Assembly: GCA_002049455.2 (NCBI GenBank) | Contig: KV919004.1 | Coordinates: forward strand, 1-64,000 | From: Porphyra umbilicalis | Lineage: Eukaryota > Rhodophyta > Bangiophyceae > Bangiales > Bangiaceae | Length of the DNA stretch: 64,000 nucleotides | Direction: 5' to 3' | Notes under the pieces: model-generated | What the model was told of the DNA's origin: nothing | The model's input: only the letters and a program-made list of their open reading frames with translations | Database searches by the model: none | Translations under genes and position numbers: made by a program | Part shown: piece by piece, positions 14,761-61,229 of the stretch | Layout of the letters: every line of letters begins with the position of its first letter | How positions within the stretch are numbered: the first letter of the stretch is position 1

Positions 14761-16295
14761 CCGCCGGTGGCCGCCGCCGGGCCAACCAGACTGGCGGCTG
14801 CGGCGGTGGTGCCCGCACCATCAGCTGCTCTGCCACCGCCGATGCCCGCTGGCGATCGATCGCCGGCGGCCGCCGCCGCGGCGGCAAGGCCGGCGGCCGC
14901 GGCAGCGGCGCCATCGGCACCAGCTCCTCCCTGCCCAGCTGCGCCGGCGAAGGGTTCTCCGCCGGCGGCCGCCGCCGATTCGACATCGCCGGCGGCCGCC
15001 GCACCTGTTCCCGTATTGCCAGCCCAGCCGACGTCGCCTGCGCCAACGGCATGGCCATCATCGGCGGCGGCCGCAGGTTCCCCATCCCTTGCGGCCGCCG
15101 CCGCTGCCATACGCTCATGAGCGACATACCGGCCACGCCTCTGCTCAACGACCATGTTGTGCAGAATGGCGGCCGCCTTGCCGGCAAGCATCATCTGCTC
15201 TACAGAGCCAAATCGGCCAGGGTGTAGAAGAATGTGGAATCTCGCGGTCATAACCCCGTAGAGCCGCTCGACATCCTTGCGCAGCGCTTCCTGGAGCCGG
15301 TTGAAACATTTTTCTGCGGGTGTGATGGGGTTGGGGTACGGAGAAACAAAAAATTGATACTTGGGATAAACACCGTCAGTAAGATAATACAACAAACGAC
15401 GTGAGCGACCATTAACACAGAAAGAGAAAGACTTTGGCGGCCACACACCCTCCACCACATCAAAATACAACGGTGAGATGCGTAACACGTTGAGGTCATT
15501 GAGGCTCCCCGGCGCCCCGATGAAGAAATGCCAGATGTAAAGGTCCTCATCACAAACCGTCTCCATGACAATGGAGCGCCGCTTCTTGCGGTTCTGATAC
15601 TGCCCAGCAAGCCCCTTTGGGCACGCGGCCCACTCCCAGTGCGAGCAATCGAGGCTGCCGATGCATCCCGGCATGCCCCGTGCTGCGTTGCGCTCCAGCA
15701 TGCGCTTGACCTCCTCGTCGTTAGGAGGCCGCAGGTAGACGGGCCCCCACTCCTCAACAATAAACTCAATCAGCTTCTTCGTGGCCACCTCAATTGTAGA
15801 CTTGGACAGCCGGACATACTCATCCGCACGATCATACGACTGCCCGTACGCGAGGACACGGAAGGCGGCCACCAGCTTCTGCAGAGCATAAGCTTGTGGC
15901 CGCCCCGTCGCATTGATGCTCTGCCGCCAAAATGGCCGGTCCCGGATGGCCTCATAAATGCGCATAAAAACAGACCGTGGAACACGGAAGCGACGCTCAA
16001 ACGTTTCTTCTCCATACACAGGCGGCTGCCCATCCACACCAAAATAATCCCGCATGATGCCGCGCATACCCTGGTCGAAATCACGTGGCCGGTTGGGACG
16101 CCGCCCGGCCACAGACCCGACAAAACGCCGTCTGCGCGCTCGCTGCGCCGCATTCCTGCGATGACGGCGCATCAGGAATAGAGATCGCGCTCCGATGACG
16201 GCCGCAAGCAGCTCGTCCGCGGAGCCCTCCGACTGCCCGCGGCCGTCATCGCTCGACGACCCAGACCCATCATCAGTGGACGCGTCCATCTGCAT
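14340..16295 (-). CDS. Harbinger-type DDE transposase with repeat tail
   Basis: The 651-aa protein matches the PIF/Harbinger nuclease family (DDE_Tnp_4). Catalytic candidates are D216 in GSLDCSHW, D267 in GSLNDLNVL and E343 in RKDVERLYGV. Other family marks are GQYQNRKK (231-238) and AILHNMVVE near 377-385. The first 60 residues are acidic then Arg-rich and could hold a nuclear signal. From about residue 395 the protein becomes Ala/Gly-rich and then enters 33-residue repeats encoded by the 99-bp array; this tail is unusual for the family. The ORF ends at TGA (14,340-14,342), where neighbouring repeat units have GGA. The same frame stays open after this stop, so the tail may once have been longer. 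The nuclease core looks intact, but without its partner protein the element may not move alone. Confidence 0.88.
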   Translation of the reverse strand: MQMDASTDDGSGSSSDDGRGQSEGSADELLAAVIGARSLFLMRRHRRNAAQRARRRRFVGSVAGRRPNRPRDFDQGMRGIMRDYFGVDGQPPVYGEETFERRFRVPRSVFMRIYEAIRDRPFWRQSINATGRPQAYALQKLVAAFRVLAYGQSYDRADEYVRLSKSTIEVATKKLIEFIVEEWGPVYLRPPNDEEVKRMLERNAARGMPGCIGSLDCSHWEWAACPKGLAGQYQNRKKRRSIVMETVCDEDLYIWHFFIGAPGSLNDLNVLRISPLYFDVVEGVWPPKSFSFCVNGRSRRLLYYLTDGVYPKYQFFVSPYPNPITPAEKCFNRLQEALRKDVERLYGVMTARFHILLHPGRFGSVEQMMLAGKAAAILHNMVVEQRRGRYVAHERMAAAAAARDGEPAAAADDGHAVGAGDVGWAGNTGTGAAAAGDVESAAAAGGEPFAGAAGQGGAGADGAAAAAAGLAAAAAAAGDRSPAGIGGGRAADGAGTTAAAASLVGPAAATGGGSPAGVRGGEEAGGAGASAAAADFGGSAAAAGGHSPAGVRGGDGAGCAGAAAAAADFGGSAAASGGDSPEGVRGGDGAGGVGAAAATSDFGGSTAAAGGYSPSCGGGGRGVDGAGAAAAAANFRGSAAAAGGDLPAGVR

Positions 16296-16327
16296 CCACC
16301 AGTGCAGCCGACGTCACGAGAGCTAGA

Positions 16328-24979: not shown

Positions 24980-25969
24980 TCACAGACAAGAAAGAAAGGC
25001 CCTCCCGCCGTCGTCCTCGTCCTCGGCGCCGTCGCTGTCGGAGCCGCGACCGGTGGCCGCATCCTGGTCGTCATCGGCGGGTGTGTAGTGCCGCTCCGGC
25101 GTCGCCACCTTGGTCGCCTTGGGGGTCTTGTACGTGGCCGGGGACGCGGCCAACAGTTCCGCCACCTTGTCCTTCACCTTGCGCGCCTCGGTCTCATTGC
25201 GATGCCGGACGGCGCGTGCGAGCAGTGCACACGCCGCCCAGCTCCGCTGAGTGCGGCTCTGCGTCGGGCATGCCGCCTCGACGTCGACAGCGGCCTTGGC
25301 GACGTCGCCCGAGCTCTGCCGACAGAACGAGCGGCCGATGAAGAAGTAGTCGATGACGGCCTTCCGCACGACGGCGAGGATGAGCTTCTTGTCCTTGGTG
25401 TTGACGCCGCAGAGACCGCCCTTGGCGACGTTGATGCCCTTGAGGCTTGTCTTGCGGGGACGGCAGATGTCGCGTGTAGTGCCGATGGGAAGCGGGACAT
25501 CGTCGATGCCGCCGATGGCGCCACCGCTCCAGCTGCGGGAAACGACCTTGACGTCGTTGGCGGCTAAGCGTCGGAGGGTGGGGCCCGCCTTGAAAGCGCT
25601 GTCCCGGCAGATGACATATTGAGCCGCTGCACGTGCGAGGACGACAGCCTCCATAGAGGCCAGCTGCTCGAGCTGCATGAGCGTTGGGCGGTCGGCGTCG
25701 TCGGTGGTTGTCGTCGGCGTGGTAGCGGCCGCGCGGCTTGCGGCGGGAAGGCCGGCTGCAGGAGAATGATCAGCGCGGGCACTTCGGAAGTCTGCCGTCG
25801 TGAGCGCGGGCCCGCGTGTGGCGACGTGGAGCCAGCGCGGTGGAGCCCCGGTCGGTTGGCCTTCGGGGGTGCCACCGCCGCCGCGACGAGCGAGGTAAAG
25901 CGAGCGGCAGGCAGCGGGCAACTTGTCGAGCCAGTCCACCGACAGTGTCTTGACTGCCGGCGGCGTCAT
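24980..25969 (-). CDS. Hypothetical protein next to tnp2-like transposase
   Basis: The 329-aa frame has no recognised domain. It has a Pro/Ala-rich N-terminal third, a central stretch with SMEAVVLARAAAQYVICRDS and KKLILAVVRKAVIDYFFIG, and an acidic Asp/Glu-rich C terminus. Its ATG overlaps the stop of the upstream frame. Its place directly 3' of transposase remnants on the same strand suggests a companion protein of that element; an alternative is a later exon of the same gene. Codon use reads like a real protein in the middle part. Confidence 0.45.
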   Translation of the reverse strand: MTPPAVKTLSVDWLDKLPAACRSLYLARRGGGGTPEGQPTGAPPRWLHVATRGPALTTADFRSARADHSPAAGLPAASRAAATTPTTTTDDADRPTLMQLEQLASMEAVVLARAAAQYVICRDSAFKAGPTLRRLAANDVKVVSRSWSGGAIGGIDDVPLPIGTTRDICRPRKTSLKGINVAKGGLCGVNTKDKKLILAVVRKAVIDYFFIGRSFCRQSSGDVAKAAVDVEAACPTQSRTQRSWAACALLARAVRHRNETEARKVKDKVAELLAASPATYKTPKATKVATPERHYTPADDDQDAATGRGSDSDGAEDEDDGGRAFLSCL

Positions 25970-28288
25970 ATGCGCGTTGGTAGGAGGGGAGTGGGGTGCG
26001 GCAGTGGGGAGGGGAGGCGTGGAAAAATGTGTACGGGAGACGTGGGGGTAGTCGTGACAGGGGCGTGATAGCCGGAGCGGTTTTGCCGTTTGGGCGTCGT
26101 CGTCTCCAGATAATGCTGAGCGACAGTCCTCGGGGCCGGCCTAGGGGGCACCCCTGTGTGCAGGGGCCCCCCGTCGTCACTGCCCCCGTTGAACCATCTC
26201 GTTGCAGCCCAAGCAGGAAGTGGTCGATGAGTCCGTAATGCAGGACGCTCATCCTGCCTCTCACCACCGCCGGCTGTGCGTACACGCACAGTGCTCCGAA
26301 CGCGTACAAATCTGTTACGTCGTTGGACTGTACTGCTGTCAGACTCCAACATTGTGGAGCCAGCTACGGCCTCCGAGGGGAGGACCGCACGAAAGTACTT
26401 CTTACTGAAGATCTGGGAAGGTAGAGCGCCTTGCCGGTTGCGCTCCAACACCTTGAGCAGGCTCTGCAGCTCATGGCCAGCCAGCAACTCTGGCCTCTTG
26501 CGCGGTGACATCAACGTCATCTGCCGGTCCTCCTTGGACGGACAGGCAAAGGAACTGCGCGAGTACTCCGGCTGCGCGCAGGGGTCTCGCCCGCTGACGT
26601 CTGTCCACAGCTTGCGGTGGAAGGAAGACGCGTGCGAGGCAATCAACTCTGCCCTGTACTTTTGCGACACCGCATTCATCAGCGCCGCGTGCGGGCTGGA
26701 CCGAGAGCGCATCAGCGCAGGAAGCGTGCCGATGTAGCGCTCCATGGGAAACTTGCAGTAACTCCATACGGGCCCGCACGCTTCTATGTTGTGCGGGATG
26801 TCCAGGAGAGCCACAACTGTGGAGAGGCACAGCGTGATGTTCTTGATATCACCTCCGTAGGCTTTCTTGTAGAAGAGGCCGCAAAGGTTTTGCAGCTCCG
26901 TCTTGAGGGTCGCCACATCGCTCACTGGGAGGTCGTCCGGCACGAAGATCAGGCGGCATGCGCGCACGGGGCACATAAACATGTTGTACGACTCTGATGG
27001 AATGCGCCCAGCTAGAGCAGCAGGGCCTGTGCTCAGCACAAAAGACATCCACGCAACCGCCTTGTACGACTTGTAGTGAGTCTGGACATTTCGCAGCCCA
27101 CGGGCTTGAAACAGGGGCACTGTCGCTCGGGCCACCGCAATCTCGGCACCGACGAGCTCTGCGACGCTATTTGTCATAGCTCATTTGTGTGGAGCCTGGT
27201 TGGAGTCTTTCCACACCCCTGAAAACAGACGCCACAGGTTGGATACGTTGTTCTGTAGCACTAGGTGCATGACGTCGTTCCGCGCGGAAGACGGCCCAAT
27301 GTCCCGTATGTACCTCATGTGGGGATAGGGTGCCCTGTCCACCGGGCTGGGACACGTCATGAAGAAGTAGCCTTTGTACCCGCTGACCTGCATCAATCGC
27401 TCTACACAAATCTTGGACCGGGTCTGCAATCGGGCCGCTTCAATGATGTTGACAGCTTCGGTTCTCGAGGAAGCTGTCCTTCGGTTCTTGTTGTAGTACT
27501 TCTTTTCGAACAGCTTGGCAGGCGACGCAGGTCTGTCCGACGGGTCCTTGTCTGGAAAGTCATGGTGGTTGGAGCCCTCCACCCAGACACCATGGAAGTC
27601 CTGAAAGCGACTTGGCTGTCGACCATTACTGCCCTTTATGCCAGTCACCTTGTTGCCACCAGGCATTTCCGACGTCAATTGAAGCAGGTGGACTCGAACC
27701 TCTTGTATCCCATCCACTCCGGCGACCTTGTCCCCGAGCATCCCGCGCGCCAGCAGGTTGAGCTCTTCCATGATAGGATGGAAAAAGGGCTCTAGATCCT
27801 CTGGCTATTAAGGATCCGGCGTGACCGTTACTAGCAGCTGCGAAGCAATATTGAACCGCGTCGAGGTGGGCATACTCATGATAGTGAGCATGATAGGCCA
27901 TCATTGATAGCCGCTCTGCTTCCAGGCTACGTATCCGTCAGCCCTCAAGCTCACGAAGATGCCCATAGGCGACTTGATGATGCCCTTCTTGACCAGATCA
28001 CGGTAGATTTCGCTGTGGTAGAAGCTCCTTGAACACTGTTCGCGCCGTCTCGGCATGAGCAAGCGCGTCCTCGTTCAATTTGATCATATTGGGTCCCATT
28101 TCCGGGTCCGCGAGCATCATGGCCATCCATGGCGATATCTTGCAGTAACGCGTTGTCTTGCCTGGTTGCCCTTGGGAGTTGTACCGCTCTACCTGGCCAA
28201 AGGGACAAGTAGTAGCCTGCACGTGTTTAGCCGTGTACTCCTTCCAGCCGATCCAGCAGCAATGCACGATCTTCTCCTCAAGACGCAC
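25966..28288 (-). pseudogene. tnp2-type transposase (CACTA superfamily), fragmented
   Basis: Reading minus, three pieces follow the family order. At 28,288-27,998 is SPWMAMMLADPEMGPNM. At 27,771-27,181 is DIGPSSARNDVMHLVLQNNV, the conserved Asp-x-Met-His region. At 27,177-25,966 are the helical part and CGPVWSYCKFPMERYIG, which matches the GPVW...FPMER block typical of fungal-type tnp2 proteins. The last two pieces share a frame and are split only by TGA at 27,181-27,183. The first piece is in another frame, so either an intron or an indel lies between 27,771 and 27,998. The last 150 residues of the final frame are probably not coding. Terminal repeats were not found. Confidence 0.65.
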
Positions 28289-45339: not shown

Positions 45340-46047
45340 GGGGTCGTATCTCGAAAAAAACGACCCACGATGACACGTGGGCTACAAGAGATCGTGGGTG
45401 GGGCTACAAGAGATCGTGGGGGCTCTCTGGGGGGGTGTGGGGGGGGGGGGGGGGGGTTGGGGGATGAGGGGGGTGCTGGGGGGGGCGCTGAGGGGGGGGT
45501 TGGGGGGGGGGTTGGGGGCGGGGTTGGGGGGGTTTGGGGGGGGTTTGGGGGGGGGGGTCGGGGGGAACTGAGCGGCGTGCTGGGGCTCGGGGGCGCAAAT
45601 TGGCATTGTGGGCGGGTCGTCAAGTTTGGACGCACAATGGCCTGACAACGTGCTGACGACCTTACGTGGCCGCTACCACCGCCCCACCAGTGCTGTCTCA
45701 GAGCCGCACCGCGCCCCACTCCTCGGCTACCGCAGCCGTCGCTGCCCTTCTCCCCACTGGCAGCCCGTCGCCACTACAAATGTTTCTCGCTTTGTGTGTT
45801 TTCCTGCCTGGCCGCCCACCCGGCTGCGGCCGACGTGTCATCTGCCAAGGAGGTCCTGCTAGACAAGAAGAGACGCGCGAAGATAGAATTCCCGTATTGT
45901 TTCCAGCTGGTCAGAAAGAACAGAGTACAGTATGGGAGACCGGCCGTAGTGTTTTTTCCAACCAAAAGCAATGGAAATCGCTATAGGCAGGAACAGAAGG
46001 CACATACGGTATCCACAAGATGGGGCAGTGCCAGAAAAACGCACGAG

Positions 46048-46049
46048 AT
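46048..46049. repeat. Target duplication AT, left
   Basis: AT precedes the left terminal repeat, and AT also follows the right one (55,778-55,779). The unoccupied site at 42,501 has a single AT. Confidence 0.8.
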
Positions 46050-46065
46050 CGTCGGCGGTTGTGCC
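46050..46065 (+). repeat. Left 16-bp terminal inverted repeat
   Basis: CGTCGGCGGTTGTGCC, exact reverse complement of 55,762-55,777. Confidence 0.92.
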
Positions 46066-46972
46066 ACAACGTGTTACGGACGCAATACCCACGTCATGCA
46101 AAATCAATGAGCGATGCGTGCACGAGGCGTGCACGAGGCGTGCTGTGACACATAAAACGCAATACCAAGCTCTGCAATGTGTGTTACGTTCATTTATCCG
46201 GCACTAGCGAATATCACCCCCCTTTCCGGATGACTGCCGACTTGTTCCAAGTGCAGAAAAACTTAAATAACACGAAACTTGCGCTGTGAAGCACAGCAGC
46301 AAATCAAGCTCGAAGGAGCGCACAGAAAGTACATTCCGGAGAATGTCAGGCGGGCCACTCGGTCAGCAACCAGAAAGAACAGTCCGCGTGACAGTGCGTC
46401 CTGTCTTGTAGGTACAGCGGTCCGCCGGCACAGAGCAGGAGCAGAGGCAACAGGCAAGTGTAAGGCCCAGTCGCGAGAAGACGTGAGAGAGGCAAGAACG
46501 TATGGGACCCGTAATGACAAGGAACCCACTCGAGGGCCACGTGGCGCCCCAGACACGCGAGACCCATCTGGCGACCGAGGACAGGGCTCCTCACAGGTCC
46601 GAGAACGGTGGCGAAACGATGAACGTAATGCATCAAAGGAATGTGCAATGCGTCCGCGGAACGCGTGAGGAAACGCATGGATACCGGGAACGCATGGCAT
46701 GATGCCATCGAGAAAGGCGTACTCAAGAGGAACACAAGCCGAGAACCCCGAAGGGACGGAAGCAGAGCATGCACAAGCTAAGCGCAAACAGTCAGCCAGG
46801 GTGCGAAAATGAAAGGAACACATGGAGCACCGGTCAGGAGGTGCCCGAAGGTACCCAATGCCACCATCGAGCGGCATCAAATATGGGTGCCAGGATAGCT
46901 AGGATGGTGGCATAGGTCAACCCGCTCACTCCAAAAGCAGTAAACAGGCACAGCCAAGCTTACCGCATCTGC
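46066..46972. other. Left subterminal region of Plavaka-like element
   Basis: No supported ORF. Words such as ACGCAATAC and CGAGGCGTGC recur near the end. The rest is AG-rich on plus, without a recognised feature. Confidence 0.5.
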
Positions 46973-49900
46973 TCAGACCCCCTTATGGTCATTGTCACTG
47001 TCTTCGCCCTCCTCATCGCCCTCCTCGCCGTCGTCATCGCTCTCCTCACCGTCGTCATCACCCTCCTCGTCTTCTTCATCGCCCTCTTCCTCGTCGTCAT
47101 CACCCTCATTGTCGTCGTCCTTCTCCTCTTCGCCGTCGTCGTCGTCCTCCTCTCCTTCATCGTCCCCGACGTCGTAGTCGGAGTCCACCTCGTCGTCTTC
47201 CTGGGCGCCATTCTTCTTCTGGTGGACGTCGTCCGCCTCGTCGTCGTCGTCACTCACGTCCACTTGGTAATCGCTCCTCTCGTCGTCGTCTTCGTCGCCC
47301 CCCTCGTCGTCTTCGTCGTCTTCACCAGTTCCGGCGCTCGAGTGCTCGTATTCACTGCCGACGTCGGACGGGGTCGCGGCCTCCACGCTGGGGCTCCGGC
47401 TGCGCTTCTCCTTCTTAAACCCTTTGCCCGGGGCCTTGGTCGAAGCGGTCCTGGACGGCCCGCCGCCCATGGGGCCGCGCAGACGAGCGCGACGGGCGTC
47501 ACTGACGCTGCGCCCCTTTGCTTGCGGGTGGGCGACCACAATCCGTACGTCATCGTCGTCCACCTCGTCCTCCTCCTCAATGGACTCGTCGAGGATCAGG
47601 GCGAGAGCCTGCATCAGGGTGCCCTTGGATGCGCCGCTACCACGCTTTGTCAGCTGCCGTCCGTTGCGCGCCTTGGGGGCGGGCCTCGAGGGAGATTCGG
47701 GGTCGTTGACTGTTGCGCAGTTCTTGTCGTCTTTGTCCGTCTTGAACATACGCACCCAAATGCACTGTTCCTTGTTGGCCTCTGCGTGCAGCCACGCGAG
47801 CTCCTCGCACCAAACAGCTCGATGGGAAGGTGTCACGCCTGAGTACATGGCGCTGATGACTGCCTTGGTGTAGGCTTGGAGCCACAGGTTGTTTCGGATC
47901 TGGGGGGAGTCACCAGGTGTCGCATGCATCACGCAGCGCAACACGTGACAGTAGAGTTCGAGGCGTCAGTTTCTTGCGCAATGCGTGGATACGAGAGCAA
48001 TGCGTTACACAAACCTGCAGCGCGTTGCAATGACGCACTGCGTACCCGTGGCGTGTGGAATGCACCATTAGGAGTTCGTGAGATGCAAAAAGAGGTGCGC
48101 TCGTGGCGCGCGGACTCACCTTTGTAAGCACGAAAGCCAATTGGCTGAGATGGACCTTGATCACCAGCCGCCCGTTGTTGTAGCTGTTCGTGTGGCAGCT
48201 GTTGCCGGCACCCGTGCGGCTGAAGTAGTACAGCATGGCATCGTAGACGCCCCTGCGCCCAGCGTCCGTTTTGATGTAGCGGCGGCCGTGCAACCACCAC
48301 AGAGCCCGATGCCGGGCTTGCTCTTCTTCGGAGACATCGTCGTCGATGACAGGGAACTCGTTGCAACGAGTGGCTGCCGACCACGCGGTCCAGATAGAGC
48401 GCCCGAGCGTCGAATGTTCCGACGAGCGGGCGCACCCACAAAAGGTCAGCAAGTCCTGAGTCCTTCTCGGCTTGGAAGAGGAGGTGGGCGCGCTCGCGCG
48501 CTTGACCTTCTTGCTGAGGGGCCTCGCCTCCTTTTGTCGTACGAGGGCGGTGGTCTCAGCCAGCTCCTCGGCACGCTCCAGCGTCGCAGGAGCAGCTTCC
48601 GCGATGACGCCGATGAAGAAATCCCGTGACTCCCCCGTCGAGAGAAAGACGTCGTCTGGCACTTCGGGTTCCCGCATCAGTAGCATTGACTTGTCATTGA
48701 GCACCTCTCGGATGGCGTCAGTCAGCTCCACACCGGTCTTCTCTGACGTGGCGCGCGGCAATCTGCGGCTTTTGCCCTTGGAAGAAGCTGGATGCTTGGA
48801 CTCGGGCGCCGACACTGTCGTGTTGGCACGGACGCGTTCCGTACGCCTTGCGTCCGAGGCGTGCGCAATGCGTTGGACCGACTTGTTTTTCATCTTGCGC
48901 CGTGGGCCCGTTCCGGCTGTCGTTCTCAGCTTGACCGTAGGACCTCCGCCGCCGCCATCAGGACCGTGCTGGGCAGCGCGTCGGCCACGATTCGGAGGAG
49001 GAGGCAATGGAGGACCGTTAGGGTTCGCAAAAAACTCGGACCCGTCCCCTTCAGCGATAACAGCAGCCGCCGCGGCCGCTGCCTCCTCCTCAGCCGTCGC
49101 CATGCGCTGCTTGAGCTGCCGAACAGCGTCCTTGTCACCCTTCTCCTCCGCAGCTATCAGGCTCGCCTCGGACTCTGAGCTAGAGGGTGAAGCAGGAAGC
49201 ACCTTGCGCACTGGTTTGCTTGCACGAGCAGGACCTCCGCCACCCTTATTATGGGCGCCGCGCTGGTGAGCGGCAGCGGCGGGGATCGCACTCTGGGGCC
49301 TTGGCGGGCGCACACTGCCCGTCAACGGCACGCCGCCCGAGGAGGTGTTCTGGAGTGTAGTTTTCTGTACATCAACCGCACTCGGGTCTGAAGAGGGCAT
49401 AGGGGGCGGAGGAGGGAGAGGCTTGGGCGGTCCCGAACGAGCACACCGCTGCGTACAGTAAAATGGCAGATCAAAGAAAGAGCAAGAAGACAGCAGTAGA
49501 CGGACAAACATGCAAGTGCGTTAGACACGGTGCGGGTGTCGACGTCACGACCTCAAGCACGAAAGACGCACGCGTCACGCACGCAACGCATGAAAAGCAT
49601 GTGTTACAATGCACCTGCACACGCCGTGCGGGCCAGTGCACGCATTGCAAATCACAGAAACGCCATGCATATGCCTGCACGTACTTTTGTGCGAGCTCTG
49701 CCCGACGACAGGTGCGTAGGGGGCCGAGTCTTCGGGGAAGTTGCTCCAGGCGAAGTGCTCCGAGTCTTCTGCGGATAGCAGACACATGGTCGGCAAACGA
49801 AGAGTGCACAGCAGCCAGCACAAAACGGACAGGTGCACACGTTAGTGGCTGAACAACGCGCATGCACAGGTGCAATGATCAGTGCTTCCATGCTCTTCAA

Positions 49901-50468
49901 ATATGAAGAACGAGCCACTTGACTCTCGAAGTCAACACCCAGTCCCGCGCTGCCATACCTTGGGCGCCATGATCGCCTCTGTTAGTGATGGTGGGAGCGC
50001 ACCCGGGTGGAGCACGCCGAAGTGGATCAGCTGCTCAACAGTTCTTGCGGCTCTCGTGGCCAGCAGGACGGATTGCGACGGATCCGTGGCACGACAAATC
50101 CCACCACCCTCCGCGTCCGCGTCTCCCTCCGAGAGCAGGAGCGGGCGTGACACGGACTGCCGGGGCGTGGCAGTGGCTAGCAGCCGCAGACCGTCAACCA
50201 CGAAGGAGCCGCGGGAAAAGGCACAACGCTCGTTGTCCTCCAACCCGCCGGTGGGGGCAACAGGTCCACGCCGTAGAGCACGAGAGACAACGAAGCGGGG
50301 CACCGTCTGGCGAGCCGGCGGCGGCGGCGGAGACGACACGGCGCATGCCGTGGCGTTGGACAACGCGTCCATTGAGAGGAGCCGTTCGGCCGCCGACGGA
50401 GAAGCCACGCAAGAATTGGCCGTCGTTCGTTGCGGCCCAGAAGGCCTGTTGAGGTCGGGCCCATTCAA
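46973..50468 (-). CDS. Companion protein of the Plavaka-like element, 4 exons
   Basis: Exons on minus at 50,468-49,959, 49,768-49,685, 49,448-48,120 and 47,899-46,973 join in phase 0 at all three junctions to 949 aa without a stop. Introns are 190, 236 and 220 bp with donors GTATGG, GTACGTG and GTGAGT and CAG acceptors. No family is recognised. The N-terminal two exons are Pro/Ser/Thr-rich. Exon 3 has a coiled, Ala/Glu-rich stretch (QLKQRMATAEEEAAAA), Lys/Arg-rich patches and an acidic middle. Across the last junction a helical segment reads SQLAFVLTK-IRNNLWLQAYT. The final 130 residues are almost pure Asp/Glu with Gly and Ser. By position it may be the TnpA-like or regulatory partner of the transposase. 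The start in exon 1 is the least certain part; an alternative ATG is at 49,400. Confidence 0.62.
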
Positions 50469-51074
50469 TTGTCACAACGGACCCGCTGGCTCATGTTCGG
50501 AAGCAACCGTCGCGCGCACCTGCGCATTCAGCGAGGCCGAGGTTGCCGATTGAACGGCCCGGCTCATCACCTGCGAGAGTCCCTTGCGTCACGTCGGTGC
50601 AACACATCAGGTGGATGCCCGATTGAGGACCAATAATTCGTCGGAGAGACAGGTCCGGGAGAATCCACAGTGGAGCGGTCCACTGGCGCTTTCAAATCGT
50701 CAATTGGGAGATTCTGGGGACGGCGAGGGAGATACGGGGTTATCATTGGCTCGTTTGATCATCCACCTTCTCCGCCACAGGTAGGCCACCACAGAGGACA
50801 CCAGCAGCGGTCCTTCCAAAGGGTGCGCTTCACACACGGGGTCGGTGATGAGGTCAGCCGCTTGGACGGACGCCCGGGCTGACACGTGCAGCGACTCACG
50901 CCGGCTGACTGCACCTTGTGTCGCAGTTGCTGCTCCGATTATTATTTTGCGTTCGCCACGTGTGCATTACGTGTTGCGTTTCGCGACGGGTTGCGTGTCT
51001 CCAGGTGCATCACGTGTCGCATTGCTTGCCCACTGCGTGCCCTTTGTGATCCGTGGTGTGGGACTCCGGCTGCC
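50469..51074. promoter_or_regulatory. Shared upstream region of the two divergent transposon genes
   Basis: About 600 bp separates the two start codons and probably holds both promoters. GTGCATCACGTGTCGCATTGC (51,005-51,025 area) carries the element's GCATTGC word. No clear TATA box was seen. Confidence 0.45.
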
Positions 51075-54000
51075 ATGCACCCTTGCTTGTATCCTGGGTG
51101 CCAACGGTCGTTCCCATTTCGCATGAACGTCGGCCGGCACATGCGCTTTCATCACGCCTCCGGGGTGGGGCGTCCGCCGTCGCCTGCCGCCTCGTCATCC
51201 CCTTCCTCTCCCCCCTCTGTTCCTGAAATTTCGACGCCACCGGGCGCACCACCGAGTCGGGAGAACACACCGCCCCATGACTTGCCTCTTGGTCCTGGAG
51301 TTGACGACCTGCTTGAGCTTGATGAGGACTTGTTTCTGCGCGATGACGACCTCGACACTGACTATGGCAGCGAAGCCCGCAGCAGCGATGTCGGCGATGC
51401 GACCGATCTCGGAGAGGTCGAAGAGCTGTTCAACTTTGAGGACGAAGACGAGCCCGCAAAGTTGCTCCCTGGCAATGCGGGTGACACTCTTTGCGGGCAG
51501 GTCCTCGAGCACTTTGCGGAGCTCGACGATGCGACGCGCAGCAAACCTGTGTACGACGCCGCACAGCGCATGGAGGCAGGCCTAGGGTTCGACAACCCGA
51601 GCTTGCGGAGAGGTTTCAAGCATGTTTGTACGTCTGGGGGGGCGGGTCTCTCGCGAATCCAAACTAAGGAGCTGTACGAGCTGGTGGTGACGGTTGAGAG
51701 TGCGACTGGAGTGGAGCGGCCCCCGTTCACAACTCGCTTCCCCTCCTTGCACTCTTTTTGGATGGCCGTTCGCGTTGAGAAGCGGCGGTTGCTGTGCCGG
51801 CTTGGTTGGAAGACGGCTGAGTTGCCGATTAGTGGACGTATGTACAAGGTCATCTACCGCGACGGCCTTGACACCATCCAGTACCAGCTACGGCGCGCAT
51901 TGACCGTGCCGTGGGAACGTGACGGGCCTTTTTGCTCCTGCGATGCTCAAGAATCTATGGTGCCCGGCGCGGGCGGCGAAGGAGAGGAGCCCGAAGATAT
52001 GGACACGGTGTTGGATGACTCTGTGTCTGACTCGGGCCTCGCGTGTGCGGCACGCATTGCGGCGCAATGCGCCAACGATGTGCGCAATGCATGTGGTCAC
52101 GGCGTGGCTCCACGTGTCGGACGGCCAACACGGCCATGCACGTGCGGCCTGCCGCGGAGACCGGTGCGCACGGGAGGAAACGAGCACCACGATCGCGTTC
52201 TTCACGACATTTTTGATGGCGAGTCATTCAGGGCGCAACGGGAAGACGTCCGCCGCATGTTTGGCGACAACGTCCGCATGCTCGGCCTGTATCTGTACTC
52301 GGACGGCACAACACTGAGCTCTTCTGGTGGTACGGGTTGAGCCCGTTCCTTTTTCCTGTACAACAATGTTCGCCTTCCGTCGGCCCACGACATAAGCCCC
52401 ACTCCATTGGTCATGATTTCTTGGTGGACCCTTTCTGACAGCATGCTCGCTTTGTTTCTCACGCTGCGTGGCCTTCCTCGCGGTGGTTGAGATGGATGTT
52501 TGTTCCATTGTGTGTTTCCCCAGCTGTGTGCGCTTACCCGATCAGGATGCGTGTGATCAACATCGTCACGAAAAAGGTCGGTTGGCACACCATCGCATAC
52601 GTGCCGTCGGTCGCTGGAAAGCATGAGCCCATGTCGAAAGCAAAGGCCGCCCAGACGCGAGCCGAGCTCTTGCAGCGCACGCTGGCGATGTTGTTCTATC
52701 GCTGCATGATGGCCAGCCACTGCGATGCGGAGCTACTCCTCCGTGACGGCACGAAGGTGATCGTGTGCCCTCGCGTCCTACTGTACGTTTGTGACCAGCC
52801 TGAAGAGCGTGCTGTGCTGGGTCTGAAGCAGCATGGGAGCACGTACGATTGTACACCGTGCATGGCCCGCTCCGACGCAAGCTCCAACATCGGCGAGAAG
52901 CGTCCCAGAGCAAGGAGCGTGCTCAAAACTGTCACGGCGCAGATGAGGGGGGCAAGTTTACGCGGAGTTTACGGCATGGGACGCACCATTGAGGACTTGG
53001 AGACGGACTACAGTGTCAGATGTATCGTTCCTGCTCTTGCGGGATGGGCAGGTCTGGGCTCAGGCTGCTTCATGCTCTACAAACTGCCTGGCTTCGATCG
53101 CCTCCACGTACGTACTCGCCCGCCTCGTATTGGGTACCCTCCTCGCTTCACTTATACTCTTCTACACTCTGTCGCACCCCATTTACTGGCGGTGCTGATG
53201 CTTGCTCACAACCGAACCACAGCCGTCTGACAAAGGTTTCTGACAACACAATCGCTCTTCTAGAAGCATGGTCCTCTGCAAGTCTACCTTTTCTTGTGCC
53301 CAACAGGTGCTGGCTGTCGGGCTCATGCGCACCATCAGCAATGAGATCCCAGTTGACGCGGAGACGGTAGCTGACGGCGGCGATCTGGTACATGGCCCAG
53401 TTATTGACACCATGCGGAGCTGCAATACGCGGTTCTCGTACGCATGTCGCACGCATCGCGTACCTACCGCTCAACCAGGGTATGTATTGCATTCTCAGAC
53501 ACGTATCCCCATTTAGGAGGTCGCAACGACTGAACCTTTGACCCCGTGAGCGGACCTCTAACGAAGCGTGCCTCCCAAGGACTAACTGCCTGACTCGGCT
53601 TTCATGTGGTCCCACCCACTCCGTCTTTGATATCCTTTGATTCATGGAATTCTCCGGCCGTGTGGACTCGACAGGTACCTGGTAAAGGCAGACACGGTAC
53701 AGACTACATTGCGTGGGGCCGAGCATCGCTCCGTGATGCATTTTCTTCCTTTCTCCGTTGCTGGCGCCGTCGGGACGTCCTCTGGTCGCGGCAACCATTC
53801 GGTATTGACCTGGAGCCTGTGCGAGCTGGCCGCTCTCACGCGCGATATTTTTGCTATGAAGTCCTCTACCGTGTCGGAGGCGCGGGCTCTTTGCCATCGC
53901 ATGTCCGTGTGGGTGTCATCTGACTTCCAGAATATCTTCGGAGAGAAGCACACGACGAAATTGCACCGTCTGCTCGCCCACCTCTTAGACGAATTTTTGC

Positions 54001-54782
54001 TGCGGGGAAACGTACACGACGGCGACTCCGGCATCAACGAGGCGCTACACAAGGCGGTCAAGCTCGCATGGCTCCGTACAAACCACCGCCGGTCCGAGTA
54101 CACCCTTCAGTTGGTGCTGGCTGAGCAGGTGGCGCAACTCCTTCGGGGCGAGGACATCGACGACGGGGAGTTAGAAGAGGCCACGCCACGCCCGGGCACT
54201 CGGGATCGCGCACGCGGTAATGTGGTGGAGGTCGGCGTGTTGGCGGAGGAGCGCAATCTTCCAGGCCTGGCAGAGGTGCTTGATTGTGACGCTACCGCCG
54301 ACTTGACAGTCGGCGTGGGCTCTCGCCTGCACCCACATGCGCCAAGACGACATGACGGACGCCGCCAAATTGTTAGAGCTGCGGAGGACTTCTACGGTGC
54401 TCCGTGGTGGGACTGGATCCGGTACGTGGACCGCCAGGGAGTCGAGCGCTACGGTCGGGCTAGAGTTGTCATCCTGGGCACAAGCTCTGTAGCGGAGCGC
54501 GTCATCGTTGTGGAGCGCGCCGTCCAGGCCACACCTGTTGCTGGTTGCCCTTTCAGTGCCTATGGTTGCGAGCGCCTGCGATGGGATATGCCCCCCGGCG
54601 CTGACGCCCCCAGGGTGGACGCCATACAGCTCAAGGACGTCAAGAGTGTGCTTTGTGTCGAGTTGGATTGGGTAGACTGGGTACGCCGACATGGCCTTGA
54701 GCGAATGCCGGCGTCGACTCCCACCACATCTGAAGAGTACAGAGCTCGCAGGATGTTTGTCAATGCGTTTGTATCGGCATGA
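51075..54782 (+). CDS. Plavaka-type transposase with C2H2 finger, 4 exons
   Basis: Exons at 51,075-52,329, 52,524-53,107, 53,307-53,479 and 53,675-54,782 give an uninterrupted 1,039-aa protein. Introns are 194, 199 and 195 bp with donors GTACGG, GTACGTA and GTATGT and CAG acceptors. The protein starts with a C2H2 finger (C4, C9, H22, H26). An acidic region follows. The core has LYLYSDGTTLS (D410) directly before the first junction, CAYPIRMRVINI after it, a LLLRDGTKV strand (D493), VCDQPEE (D509), CTPC (C528, C531), FDRLH (H613), FGEKHTTKLH near 760 and INEALHK (E793, H796) before RTNHRR. This order matches Plavaka/tnp2-type DDE transposases known mainly from fungi. The first intron sits exactly where the conserved YSDGT...YP block is split, which supports the model. 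It acts on the element's termini in the nucleus; activity is inference. Confidence 0.85.
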
Positions 54783-55761
54783 AGTCAAATGGTGGTTTGC
54801 AGCTTTGCCGTTCAACGTGCCTGCCCCGTAACATGGCGCAATACATGTGAAGCACGTCGAAGGACTACGTAAAGCGTTCGAGATGTCTGCCGTCATGCGC
54901 TAATGCGTGTGGAAGTCGAGATGGATCAAGCAGGAGCAACAAGCATTAGGTCTCAAAGAGGTGCCTATCGCTCTCGAGAGCCAGTCGGACACCGTGGCTT
55001 GCCGGCACGTCGCGCGCCACTCACGAAGGCGTCAATCTCGTCAATGCTTCATTCCCATTGGACCACGTCACTGCTAAGGCGTGCGTGGCCTCATGCGAGA
55101 AGGCCCAAGTGCTAGCAGATGTGAGGTGGCGCAATCCCATTGGAACAGCACATCCGTGCTGCAGGCGTGTGGCGTTTTCGTAAGGCACAGAGACATCGTT
55201 GTCACTTTCTCTCGGCCGCAGTGTCATTGGTGCCGCTTCGTGGCGTTGTCATTGGTGCAGCACGGACCCGGTCTCCTTTTTCGCTGTCAACGGGTGACAT
55301 CGCACAGGTAGAGCAGCGGCTTGGCCGGTTTCATCGCTGTCATTGGCTCCAGCGGAGGCTGCAGCGTTCATAACGGAACTGCTTTGGCAGTAGCCCCCCC
55401 TACGTGCGGCTTGTCTCGGAACCATCACATCTGGGACGGCTGATGCGGCCACGCAAGTGCTCAACTTGGGCGGTGTCCAAAGTAGAGCCGAGGAAGACAA
55501 CGTCGGCCTCGGACTTGGCAGAGGGACCGGTTGATCAGGCACCGACTTGCTCGAATCTGATGCGAACCGGTTGATCCAGGCACCGACTTGCTCGATTCTG
55601 ACGCCAAGCCCGAGGTCAGCTGAGACTCGACGGGGATCTGTCGAAATTGCCGTGTGCGGGGTCGTGTTCTAGCCAATTTAATCCCGCAAGGCGTTGTGAA
55701 ACGCGTGTTTGTGCGTCACAATGCGTGTCATCTGCATGCGCATTGCGGCGTAACACGCCGA
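54783..55761. other. Right subterminal region of Plavaka-like element
   Basis: No supported ORF. An imperfect direct repeat around CGGTTGATCMAGGCACCGAC occurs twice at about 55,528-55,585. CACAATGCG and GCGCATTGCG words lie near the end. Confidence 0.5.
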
Positions 55762-55777
55762 GGCACAACCGCCGACG
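55762..55777 (-). repeat. Right 16-bp terminal inverted repeat
   Basis: GGCACAACCGCCGACG, followed by AT and then the continuation of block A. Confidence 0.92.
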
Positions 55778-55918
55778 ATCCATTGGACTGGCCAGTGTTG
55801 GCACTGCTTTGACGCACAATCCGGGACACTCCAGCAATCAGCTCCTAGTTTATTCATTCTCGCTGCCACGCGCACAGCGGCGGTCCGGTCCACCTGAGCA
55901 TCCCACAGCAGGTGGCCA

Positions 55919-57859
55919 GATACACACCCATGGCTGGCTACCGCCACAACGGCGGGCACGACGACGGTGACCTCATGCTACTTCCACTCACGCGTGTACC
56001 CCGCCTAGGTCCTTCCCCCATTGTGCGAACGTATGAGCTATCACTTGCTCGCATACAAGGATCGGGAGGGGGGAGCTGTGAGACCATGGCGGCGTGCGGG
56101 TAGTGACCCTCGTCTCGGATTGACGGGGCCCATGGAATGACCCTGAGCCAGAGGTTGTGGCTAACCGGCCGAAAAGCGACCATCAAAAGACAATCAGACA
56201 CTGTCCAGATGACAGCTTTCACTCGACGTATGTTACTGAAATCTCGTGGCACGGTCACTGCCTTGGGAGCCGTGTCGGTCAGGCGTCAAGCGTTCTGAGA
56301 CCTCTCAATGGTAGTTTCATGCAAGGAGCTGCGGTTGTGTCGTGCTGTACTGAGGGTGCACATCGTCTTGACATTGAATAGAAAACTTTTGACCGCTGGA
56401 CCTTAATAGAACATTCTACAAGATTCACTCGGACCAACTTCGTTTCAAGCTCACATCGGTCGCGGGGCACGCGTGAAGGGCAGCAGGTAGGGTGTCATAT
56501 GAGCATGAAGGAGCCCTTGTTGTACTATTCTGAGCACACCGACGTGACCAGGGATTGTCCTCTATCCTACTTGAGCTCCCCGATCGATTGTGACGTGGTG
56601 TTCTTTTTGGGTCGGACGTCTACTGAAACGCGGAGGATGCCACGGGCATGCCAAGTGGGGAAGGGCAACACGTCTTGGGACAGTAGGGTGCCAAAAACAA
56701 AAGTCGTGCGGCGCTTGACTTTATCATTTCTTCTGGGTAAAGTGTCGTCCCTGATCACGCCTATTCAGTCAGAATGGACTGAAACCCACACCAACATGCT
56801 GTTTTGCACCGATATGTATCCAGCAACAGTGCCTTTCCGCACTTGCGAGCATTGCGTGAGAACCGCTGCCGCGGCGAGGCTGCGGTGACCGCTGCTGCCG
56901 CCATCACAGCCGCCCGAGAAGCGACCCCCGTGCGTTCGGTGGCGGGGGCTGGCGCAGCCGCCGTTGTCCTGCTGGCAACTACGTCCGACAGCGGGGCGGC
57001 GGCGGCGGCGCGGCAATATGCGCCCCTGCAGGCGGCGTCGGTGGCCGCGGTGCGGCGAGCGGTCCCGCGTCCGTCAGCCACCGCTGCTGTCAGCGCCACG
57101 GCACCGGTGGGGGCGGATGCGCGGGCGGCGGCAGGGCACGCACCTTTCTCTGCCGCCCTCACCGGCCCCAGCGCTACGCGGGAACGCAGCACCTCAGCGG
57201 GGGTTTTGCGGAGCGGCGGCGGCCGCCCCTGAGTCTCCCTGACCGGCTTCCGCCGGCTGGGTGGCCACCCCCAGAAGTGCGCCAGGCGTTTTTGATCCGT
57301 GCTTGGTTACCGCGGTGGTGGCGGCGGCGTTGCAGCAATCCCCGTAGACTGGGCCACCGCCACTGCCGCCGACGGCGACGAGGTTTATCCTCACCCGTTT
57401 TCAGACGCGGAAAAAGCCGCCGCTGCTGCGATAGCGCCCGCGAGCGCCAGCACGGAGGCGCCGGCGGCGTGGCGGTCCCCGGCTTCGGTGGAAGCGGGTA
57501 CGGCCGCGGCGCACGCCGCGGGGGCGACGACCATGCTGCCACCCGCTGGGGCCACCTGCGGGGGCGGTGGTAGCGACGCTGCGCCGTCCAGCCCCGTCAC
57601 TGCCTGCCGGTCATCTCCCCTCTACGGCACGGCGCAGCACGCGGCGCGGTGGTCGGTGGCCGGGGAGGTAGCGGCGGCGGCCACCGCCATCCCCGCCTGC
57701 CCTGGCAGCCGCCGCCGCCGACGGCGACCGCGTGGCGGCCCTTGCTGGTTGGGAGGGGGGTGCCGCGACGTGGCACGCATTGGCTGCCCCACGCCACTCC
57801 GCCGCCACGGCGCCGCGCACCACTGGCCGCGGCGCCCTGTGCCGGTGGCCATCGGGTGC
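55919..57859. other. Interior of A-B copy 2
   Basis: The first 0.9 kb has no gene. From about 56,850 it is GC-rich with Ala-rich plus frames (for example ATAADGDEVYPHPFSDAEKA near 57,360-57,420) that change frame repeatedly. They may be captured host exons, but open frames are common in such GC-rich DNA. Confidence 0.35.
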
Positions 57860-58474: not shown

Positions 58475-60245
58475 TCCGTCCGACACCAATTCTTAGCAAC
58501 TGGCCGCTGATGAAGGCTTAATCTTATCCCCACCGGAAAATAAAAATATGGCTCGCCTCAGGAGAGTCTGGCGGGGTCGGCCGTTTTTTCCGTTTCCGCT
58601 GGGGCGCTTCCTTTCTTCTACTGGAAAATGCACCCAAGAAAATGTCTGCACCAGTTCTTGACACAATGATTTCTCATATGAGAACGGCTCGGAATCGCAC
58701 ATTACAGTCAGAAAAACTTAGTTTGAACGGAGTATTTGATCATCTGGAGCCCCGAGTTTCCATCCTTGTGTCGCCTTCGACCACACGAAGGAGCTGTGTG
58801 GACAGCGAAGGGAGCGCGTGTAGCTCTAGACGCTTCGCAGACGAGGGGCACATGAGTTGTCGAGGAACCTCTAGGGTCATGAGACTCAGAGGGTTGCTAA
58901 AACAAGACTTTGGGCGGGGGTCGAGGATAGAGCAGGGGGGAGGGAGGGGGGGAGGCGGGGGGGGAAGGCTGCAGGCTAAGGACAGACGTGGGGACGGGGG
59001 GCGCACCGGTGGGGGAGGAAGGGGGGCGGATGGGAAGGGGGGAGGTGGGTTAGGGGGGCTCAGGGGCTATCAGATGGACGATAAAATGATGAGTAAGCCT
59101 GTGCTGGTACGCAGGGAACTGGGACAGGGTTGTGCTGTGGTGACATGAAGGGCGGGGGATGGGGGGGGCGATGGGTAGCCCTGAAAAACTCGCACAGTAC
59201 AATGTGACCACGAAACTCGGGCTCCAGAGCCGCTCTCATGTGCTGACCACACCTCTTCGTCGACCTTGACCGAGAAATCGGCCCATACAGCCACTACGGG
59301 GCTCCGGGGTGCATCGGAGTGACTCGACATCCGGATCCCTGCGGCGAACGCGGGCGGGAGCAAGACGCTCCGATCGGAAATCACTGGAAGGGCTCTGTGG
59401 ACGCGGAATTGCACCGATCCGGCCATGTACTTTTTCCTGCTCTTTTCCAGGGAAACACGCTGTTCTCGTCCAGGAGTGCTCCGTTTGAGGAGCACAAAGC
59501 ATCGTTGGAGAGCTGATGAGTTCACGAGTCCAGTGGTGTGACTCAGACCGCGCTGATATGCTTTGTTTATTTTATAAAAAACAGTGAACTGCGCCGTAGG
59601 CGGTTCCGGAGCATGCCCAGGAACCCGATTTCATATGTAAACACTGTGGATTTCCCACACAACCCCGATTTGCTAAGAACTGGTGCAAGTGTCAAGAACT
59701 GGTGACAGACGGATACACGCACACGACGGTGTGCCGTTGGAGGGCCTCTGGGAAATAGCCTCGCGCCGGGTCCGATGCCATATTTGATGCTGTCCTCGGG
59801 AGACGTCGGTGCGCCTGTCATCCACATGGGGCACCAACAGCGATGGAAATCTCGGGAGATTTCCGCCGCACGCCCAGGTGGAGGGGCAAACGACCCACGG
59901 TCGTGCCGCGATGCGTCTCGCAGTCACCCCGTCGCCCTCCCGTATCCTTGGTGTGTCGTTGACCGCAGGCCTGCGGCCTCAATGGCTCGTCACCTGTGCG
60001 GCTAGTGTACAGCGCAGGGGCCGTCGACCGACTCTACCCGCTCCCACTGCCTTTCCGTAGACGGAACCTTCAAGGCGAGGGGCGCCAGCGCACGCATGCA
60101 CACCCCCGCCTCGTCTCCACCGTCTGTCGGCAGCCGTGAGGGCCTGAAAACAAGGGATTGGAGGGTGGTACAACCTGTGTCCCCTTCCTGGGTCAGAGAA
60201 GGAAAGGGTGCGTGTCTGGCCGGACTCAATCACCCGGCCTCCGAC
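58475..60245. other. Intergenic with G-rich tract
   Basis: From 58,905 to 59,065 the plus strand is a run of G blocks broken by A or C. No gene is supported; frames crossing the tract have no recognisable motif. Confidence 0.45.
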
Positions 60246-60250
60246 TATAT
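60246..60250 (+). promoter_or_regulatory. Possible TATA element of the RING gene
   Basis: CTATATCAAG lies about 240 bp before the start codon. A second candidate, TATATA at 60,440-60,445, would leave almost no 5' UTR. Confidence 0.3.
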
Positions 60251-60485
60251 CAAGGCTGCTCCGTTGCTCATCGTGGCGGCGCTCTCCGCAGGGCCCCAAC
60301 CGCCGCCCTACCAACGCGCACTGCTCCCTCAACGACACGAGTGGACGACGCCATACCCTTCCCTACACTCGACCCCACCCCTGTACCTTGCCTTACGGCA
60401 GCCTTCGCCGTGTACCGTCCCCCCCGCTGTCCAAGTCGGTATATACTTTTCCCCCCCCTCCCCCGTGCCCACCACGCGTTTTAGC

Positions 60486-61229
60486 ATGGTCACGATCCCC
60501 GTTGCTGTGCGTGACATCTCCTCGCTCGACCCCGGCGAGCTGGTGCTCATTGCCCTCGCGGCCATCCTTGCCTGCATCGGCTTCACCGTCGGCCTCATCG
60601 CAACCGTCTCGTGGGTCCGCCGTCGGCGGGCCTCCGATGGCTCGGACAATGTCTTGTCCCCCGAGGCGGCCGCTGCGCAGGCGCCCACGTCCTCGCGTCG
60701 CCACTGGGGGCTCGCGTGGTGTTTTGGGCGCACGTGGCGCCGCTCGACCGCGGCCCCACGCCCGACCCCGCCGCCGCCCGGCACACCCCTCCGCGCTGTC
60801 CGTGACGCGCTCGTCGCCGGCACAGTGCGCGCGTCGCGGGACCACGACCGCTTCTCCTGCGCCCTGTGTCGCACGCGCCTGAGTATGGACGGGGGCGCCG
60901 ACGGTCGGGGGATGCCCGACGAGGGGGCGACGCGAACGCCCGCCGCAGACGGCGGCGGGCGCCCCGACGGCGGCGGGCCGCCCGTCGACTTGTCGGCGTT
61001 GCACGGTGTGGTGGTGCCGCCGCCCGCGGAGGCGGCAGCGGCAACGGCGGAACTCGATGCGGCGGTGCCACCCGGGCCCGCCCCGTGGCTGTGCACCCTT
61101 TGGTGTGGCCACACGTTCCACGCCCGCTGCGTGGCGCGCAGGGCGGCGGCGGCCGGGCCGGGCGCGTCGTGCCCCGTGTGCAAGTTGGATGTGGTGGAGG
61201 GGAGGGAGGGTGTTGTGGAGGAGTTCTAG
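60486..61229 (+). CDS. Membrane RING-H2 finger protein (probable E3 ubiquitin ligase)
   Basis: The 247-aa single-exon protein has a membrane segment at about residues 19-43 followed by an RRRR stop-transfer patch, a Pro-rich middle and a C-terminal RING-H2 finger. Zinc ligands are C125, C128, C207, H209, H212, C215, C229 and C232 (CALC; CGHTFHARC; CPVC). Family knowledge: membrane RING-H2 proteins of this layout are usually E3 ubiquitin ligases with the RING in the cytosol. The loop between the second and third ligands is 78 residues, about twice the usual maximum, and is Gly/Asp/Pro-rich. The start was chosen because the membrane segment follows directly; the frame is open further upstream but reads like 5' UTR. 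Substrate unknown. Confidence 0.82.
   Translation: MVTIPVAVRDISSLDPGELVLIALAAILACIGFTVGLIATVSWVRRRRASDGSDNVLSPEAAAAQAPTSSRRHWGLAWCFGRTWRRSTAAPRPTPPPPGTPLRAVRDALVAGTVRASRDHDRFSCALCRTRLSMDGGADGRGMPDEGATRTPAADGGGRPDGGGPPVDLSALHGVVVPPPAEAAAATAELDAAVPPGPAPWLCTLWCGHTFHARCVARRAAAAGPGASCPVCKLDVVEGREGVVEEF

Follow-up and report, generated by a model that had tools for sequence, protein, structure and literature searches.

A probable autonomous Plavaka-lineage DNA transposon with a head-to-head partner gene in a red-algal genome

The 9,728-bp DNA transposon that spans positions 46050-55777 of the window (the whole stretch of 64,000 nucleotides analysed) is, judging from its sequence, very probably a recent copy of an autonomous cut-and-paste element of the Plavaka lineage, within the CACTA/EnSpm-Mirage-Chapaev-Transib (CMCT) group, in a red-algal nuclear genome. 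The new part of the finding is the partner gene that lies beside the Plavaka transposase. This gene is a conserved component of a large local group of Plavaka elements, many members of which carry it. For the red algae, the window provides an element with clear boundaries and open genes; its host genome contains at least about 137 Plavaka loci.

Ends, insertion site and gene content

The element is bounded by the terminal inverted repeat CGTCGGCGGTTGTGCC on the left and its reverse complement on the right (Table 1), perfect over 16 bp, as the initial annotation had stated; over 32 bp the identity of the inverted ends is 91%. The AT duplication proposed there is equally evident, with AT on both sides of the insertion. 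The host site of the element is another interspersed repeat (window about 45900-46049 and 55780-55930), whose left flank recurs at 29 further places. Six of these 29 places, all matching the 51-bp left flank, were examined, and all six show the uninterrupted repeat with just one AT at the point of insertion (GAGATCCATT or GTGATCCATT). The 2-bp AT duplication of the window insertion is thereby proven.

Table 1. Features of the element, in window coordinates.
Feature	Position	Strand	Remark
AT target-site duplication, left copy	46048..46049		one AT in the six fetched empty sites
Terminal inverted repeat, left, 16 bp	46050..46065	+	same ends in other copies
ORF2 (partner) exon 4 with stop	46973..47899	-	acidic low-complexity C-terminus; first 88 aa matched in relatives
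ORF2 intron 3, 220 nt, GTGAGT..CCCCAG	47900..48119	-	GT..AG in all six copies
ORF2 exon 3	48120..49448	-	contains conserved core
ORF2 intron 2, 236 nt	49449..49684	-	GT..AG in all six copies
ORF2 exon 2	49685..49768	-	junctions recur in relatives
ORF2 intron 1, 190 nt	49769..49958	-	GT..AG in all six copies
ORF2 exon 1	49959..50372	-	start codon at 50372
Intergenic stretch between divergent genes, 702 bp	50373..51074		presumed promoter region
Transposase exon 1	51075..52329	+	C-x4-C-x12-H-x3-H finger (residues 4-26); putative first catalytic D (residue 410)
Transposase intron 1, 194 nt	52330..52523	+	position kept in sister C84
Transposase exon 2	52524..53107	+	second D (residue 509), CxxC (528-531); Pfam Plavaka at residues 370-559
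Transposase intron 2, 199 nt	53108..53306	+	position kept in sister C84
Transposase exon 3	53307..53479	+	four-exon gene model
Transposase intron 3, 195 nt	53480..53674	+	position kept in sister C84
Transposase exon 4 with stop	53675..54782	+	HxxxxH (763, 768), E (793)
Terminal inverted repeat, right, 16 bp	55762..55777	-	matches left end inverted
AT target-site duplication, right copy	55778..55779		empty sites with one AT

The transposase gene comprises four exons on the plus strand, separated by introns that all begin with GT and end with AG, and encodes 1,039 aa, so that the earlier gene model is reproduced exactly. The residues D410, D509, C528/C531, H763/H768 and E793, assigned by motif, are all identical in the sister element C84; D410, D509 and E793, together with CxxC and HxxxxH, would represent the nuclease residues. 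The N-terminal C2H2 finger was read from the sequence, and no zinc finger was returned by Pfam up to E 10. In the PDB sequence search, no match to the transposase falls below E 0.1 (best E 0.16; a SWI5 zinc finger matches residues 3-26 at E 0.47). In the viral and phage collections, nothing related to the transposase was found. The structure predicted for exon 4 alone reaches a pLDDT of 35.6 and does not provide a useful model.

The partner gene (ORF2), divergent from the transposase gene, consists of four exons on the minus strand and encodes 917 aa, which replaces the length of 949 aa previously given for the companion gene. In the window copy neither gene is interrupted, in line with the earlier description of two divergent, spliced, uninterrupted genes. 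The junctions between exons 1, 2 and 3 recur in the diverged relatives C84 and C276, with the first donor altered in C84. Alignment of 12 partner cores reveals 10 invariant columns. The core has no convincing match in Pfam (weak single-member matches, the best being DUF5429 at E 0.0079 in 1 of 12 cores), in PHROGs (best E 0.02, in 2 of 12) or in the PDB sequence search (nothing up to E 1).

When the genome (83.8 Mb, 665 contigs) is searched for the 18-mer formed by AT and the terminal repeat, allowing at most one mismatch, 86 occurrences are obtained versus 1 for the reversed control. The variants ATCGTCGGCGGTTCTGCC and ATCGTCGGCGGTCGTGCC, each one mismatch away from the AT and end of the window element, occur at 62 and 10 places, respectively, and partly form inverted pairs about 1.3-7 kb apart (for example C10:102016-104121, C23:112213-114607 and C6:304968-308050). 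These repeats are probably non-autonomous elements mobilised by a Plavaka transposase. The ATCGTCGGCGGTTCTGCC-ended family was also considered as a set of further autonomous copies; this was rejected, as the 18 loci examined are G+C-rich repeats without transposase or partner gene, in which nothing resembles either protein.

A candidate motif, GCAATGCGT, is present 6 times in the element and absent from the remaining 54 kb of the window; with one mismatch, the counts are 22 in the element versus 11 in the rest. In C84 there are 17 occurrences in 12.4 kb versus 3 in 5.5 kb of flank, scattered over genes and introns. The motif was picked after its counts had been seen, and these numbers hint at most weakly at a subterminal binding motif, which is weak in the relatives.

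Classification and residence in the host genome

The spliced transposase matches the Pfam family Plavaka (PF18759) with E 6e-11 and 42.6 bits, versus a cut-off of 26.3, and no other transposase family was matched, which upholds the original assignment to the Plavaka/CACTA lineage. DUF1258 (E 0.049) and DUF6183 (E 0.16) are the only other Pfam hits, and both fall well short of their own cut-offs. According to the available portion of PMC12730594, Plavaka transposases display the residue order D, D, CxxC, HxxxxH, E, with C(2)C and H(3-4)H located between the second D and the last E; PlavakaA elements end in 5'-TGT..ACA-3' and duplicate 2 bp of target, while PlavakaB elements end in 5'-CATCA..TGATG-3' and duplicate 2-3 bp. 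The window element is like the fungal elements described there in its PF18759 transposase, its D-D-CxxC-HxxxxH-E order and its 2-bp target duplication. In contrast, its ends, CGTCGGCGG..CCGCCGACG, correspond to neither of the two published types, and, relative to Plavaka as presented in that portion, it adds a conserved head-to-head partner gene and 5'-CGTCG..CGACG-3' ends. Pfam detected no TET/JBP gene in the transposase, nor in the 801 aa searched of the partner's 917.

Comparison by description with what is accessible of two reports on algae places the element further. The EnSpm/CACTA elements of Chondrus crispus, 16-20 kb long with 4-5 ORFs (PMC6431247), share with it the CMCT group, the presence of more than one gene and a red-algal host; it differs from them in its 2-bp duplication, in ends that do not start with CAC and in having two genes in 9.7 kb. 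For the green alga Auxenochlorella, EnSpm-Plavaka elements of the cut-and-paste type are reported and thought to be potentially active (PMC12636532), which provides a parallel for a Plavaka-type cut-and-paste element in an alga. The literature searches, which reached few subscription journals and did not extend to Repbase Reports, turned up no account of Plavaka in a red alga.

The nature of the host was judged from its phycobilisome genes: eight full-length phycobiliprotein genes and two partial matches in one 893-aa frame are present on C665, which would be a red-algal plastid contig, and one more match lies on C128. This set of genes points to a red alga; the initial annotation had spoken more broadly of a red-lineage alga. 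In the same genome, the Plavaka profile gave at least 123 matches, at least 118 of them over the cut-off, versus 0 in 14 control genomes. A search with the 448-aa transposase core gave at least 110 matches. The window's family, C84 and C276 account for 21 of these, and at least 89 more are 29-58% identical. Merging both searches results in at least about 137 Plavaka loci, some of which may be pieces of one element.

Two alternative readings bear on this assignment. The element could be a member of a different superfamily (EnSpm proper or KDZ) and merely look like Plavaka: the PF18759 match spans positions 80-271 of the 325 in the profile, the ends are unlike those published for Plavaka, and the exon match alone is weak (27.8 bits). 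This is very improbable, since the spliced protein reaches 42.6 bits, no KDZ or EnSpm family appears in Pfam up to E 10, and the duplication measures 2 bp, as opposed to 3 bp in EnSpm/CACTA proper, whose CAC..GTG ends are also missing here, and 8 bp in KDZ (Zisupton). A somewhat less remote, yet still improbable, reading is that the element came in recently by horizontal transfer, with a fungus as one possible donor. As far as the available portion of PMC12730594 goes, the best descriptions of Plavaka concern fungi, and the window's family consists of few, very similar copies. Against this stand the at least 89 further transposase matches at 29-58% identity in the same genome and the 74% identical sister element C84, which has the same two genes and ends. 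The earlier suggestion that a mainly fungal lineage would here be either old or transferred is only partly retained: Plavaka is also in print for the green alga and for Amoebidium (PMC11244446, accessible in part), and the at least about 137 loci, mostly far diverged from that of the window, favour long residence and make transfer between lineages unneeded.

Linkage and possible role of the partner gene

The partner is linked to Plavaka transposases across families. The 296-aa partner core, used as query, returned 107 matches, many of them weak (E 1e-5 to 1e-3), which merged into 71 loci. A Plavaka transposase lies within 25 kb of 58 of these 71 loci, head-to-head in 53 cases, and within 10 kb of 49 loci, head-to-head in 47; the chance expectation, in any orientation, is about 8% and 3%, respectively. 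The arrangement extends beyond the window's family, with 44 of 62 outside loci placed head-to-head with a transposase within 25 kb. At 5 of the 71 loci the two genes are on the same strand within this distance, and at 13 there is no transposase within 25 kb (none on the contig in nine cases, far away in four). Viewed from the transposase side, 53 of the nearest 82 loci listed in the core search have a head-to-head partner within 25 kb, and 52 are so paired among all the approximately 137 Plavaka loci listed.

The ends are shared across families as well. Two elements at C123:168537-178313 and C123:182191-191810, of a family about 50% identical in transposase, carry the ends CGTCGCGAAAATGTACCAC with AT outside, and a third family, on C234 and C323, carries CGTCGGGAAAGTGTACCAC, again with AT outside. 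The 5'-CGTCG..CGACG-3' ends and AT flanks are common to the three end-mapped families and the diverged sister C84. AT is found on both sides in all nine elements with both ends read, including four complete window-family copies and C84; the empty site was shown for the window copy only.

In the proposed mechanism, the 16-bp ends would be bound by the transposase, a putative DDE nuclease with CxxC, HxxxxH and an N-terminal C2H2 finger, which would excise the element by cut and paste; staggered 2-bp insertion at an AT dinucleotide would then generate the AT duplication. The partner, encoded on the other strand, may aid end recognition or complex assembly, much as TnpA does for En/Spm; linkage and selection are the observations that suggest this role. 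Maize En/Spm encodes TnpA and TnpD, that is, a transposase plus a second, unrelated protein. The window element is alike in having a transposase and a second protein; unlike in En/Spm, its partner is on the opposite strand and no clear subterminal binding array was found.

It is rather unlikely that the partner is instead a passenger, acquired a single time in an ancestor from the host or elsewhere and dispensable for transposition. Such an origin would fit the lack of a known domain in the Pfam, PHROGs and PDB searches, the 13 partner loci without a nearby transposase and the approximately 85 of 137 listed Plavaka loci at which no partner was detected. On the other hand, the head-to-head order at 53 of 71 loci persists between families whose cores are as little as about 27-35% identical, and the partner is under purifying selection. 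As a tentative extension, which we consider possible but doubtful, the red algae may hold a distinct Plavaka lineage of two-gene elements with a head-to-head partner of a new domain type, CGTCG..CGACG ends and insertion strictly at AT. The partner of this lineage would be an essential subunit that determines end recognition or the choice of AT as target. If it were required, DNA transposition would gain a new domain, and the way in which CMCT transposases, from which RAG1 also arose, choose ends and targets could be approached through it. If it were not, the element would be a useful extension of a known family, without a surprise of kind.

Copies, age and selection

Five further copies were found, three of them full-length (C93, 99.27% identity; C141 and C87, both 98.46%) and two not (C5, 97.54%, cut by a contig end; C2, 92.68%). 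The absence of any second copy with the same ends would have counted against the initial annotation; such copies exist, and the full-length ones lie at 98.5-99.3% identity. GT..AG is kept in all 36 introns (six in each of six copies). The window copy and C93 retain both genes open and C141 the partner alone; in C87, C5 and C2 neither gene is intact.

Between the window copy and C93, the transposase differs by 4.5 synonymous and 22.5 nonsynonymous changes (dN/dS 1.64 on 27 changes) and the partner by 6 and 14 (dN/dS 0.76 on 20 changes). These changes are neutral-looking and consequently lend no support to continued function of those particular copies. After polarisation, at least 27 changes fall on the window copy's branch and 41 on that of C93; C-to-T hypermutation was not seen among them (9 of 27 and 10 of 41). 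The description of the element as recent holds in a relative sense, as it is young within its own family: the nearest copy is 99.27% identical, and the branch of the window copy carries at least 27 changes. Neither an absolute age nor proof of activity follows from this.

The comparison with more distant relatives reveals long-term purifying selection on both genes. The sister C84 spans 12.4 kb; it has the two genes, is flanked by AT and retains an end on each side, the right one with one mismatch. Its transposase, which contains one in-frame stop, is identical to that of the window element at 760 of 1023 positions (74%), with dN/dS 0.14, and the three introns occupy identical positions. For the partner, dN/dS is 0.27 (420 codons) and 0.14 (86 codons) versus C84, and 0.26 (442 codons) versus C276, whose right end was not found within the stretch fetched. 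All values relative to C84 and C276 are rough, because dS is 1.1-1.4, near saturation.

Other coding features accompany the element in the window. A 404-aa open frame at 25969-27180 (minus strand), with no Pfam match, presumably resembles the DUF4218-like part of CACTA transposases. The open frame at 60006-61226 (plus strand) ends in a RING-like zinc finger, under Pfam cut-offs. At 14343-16313 (minus strand) and 12615-14927, a Harbinger-type transposase ORF (Pfam Plant_tran, 201.6 bits; DDE_Tnp_4) runs in frame into a 99-bp, 23-copy minisatellite.
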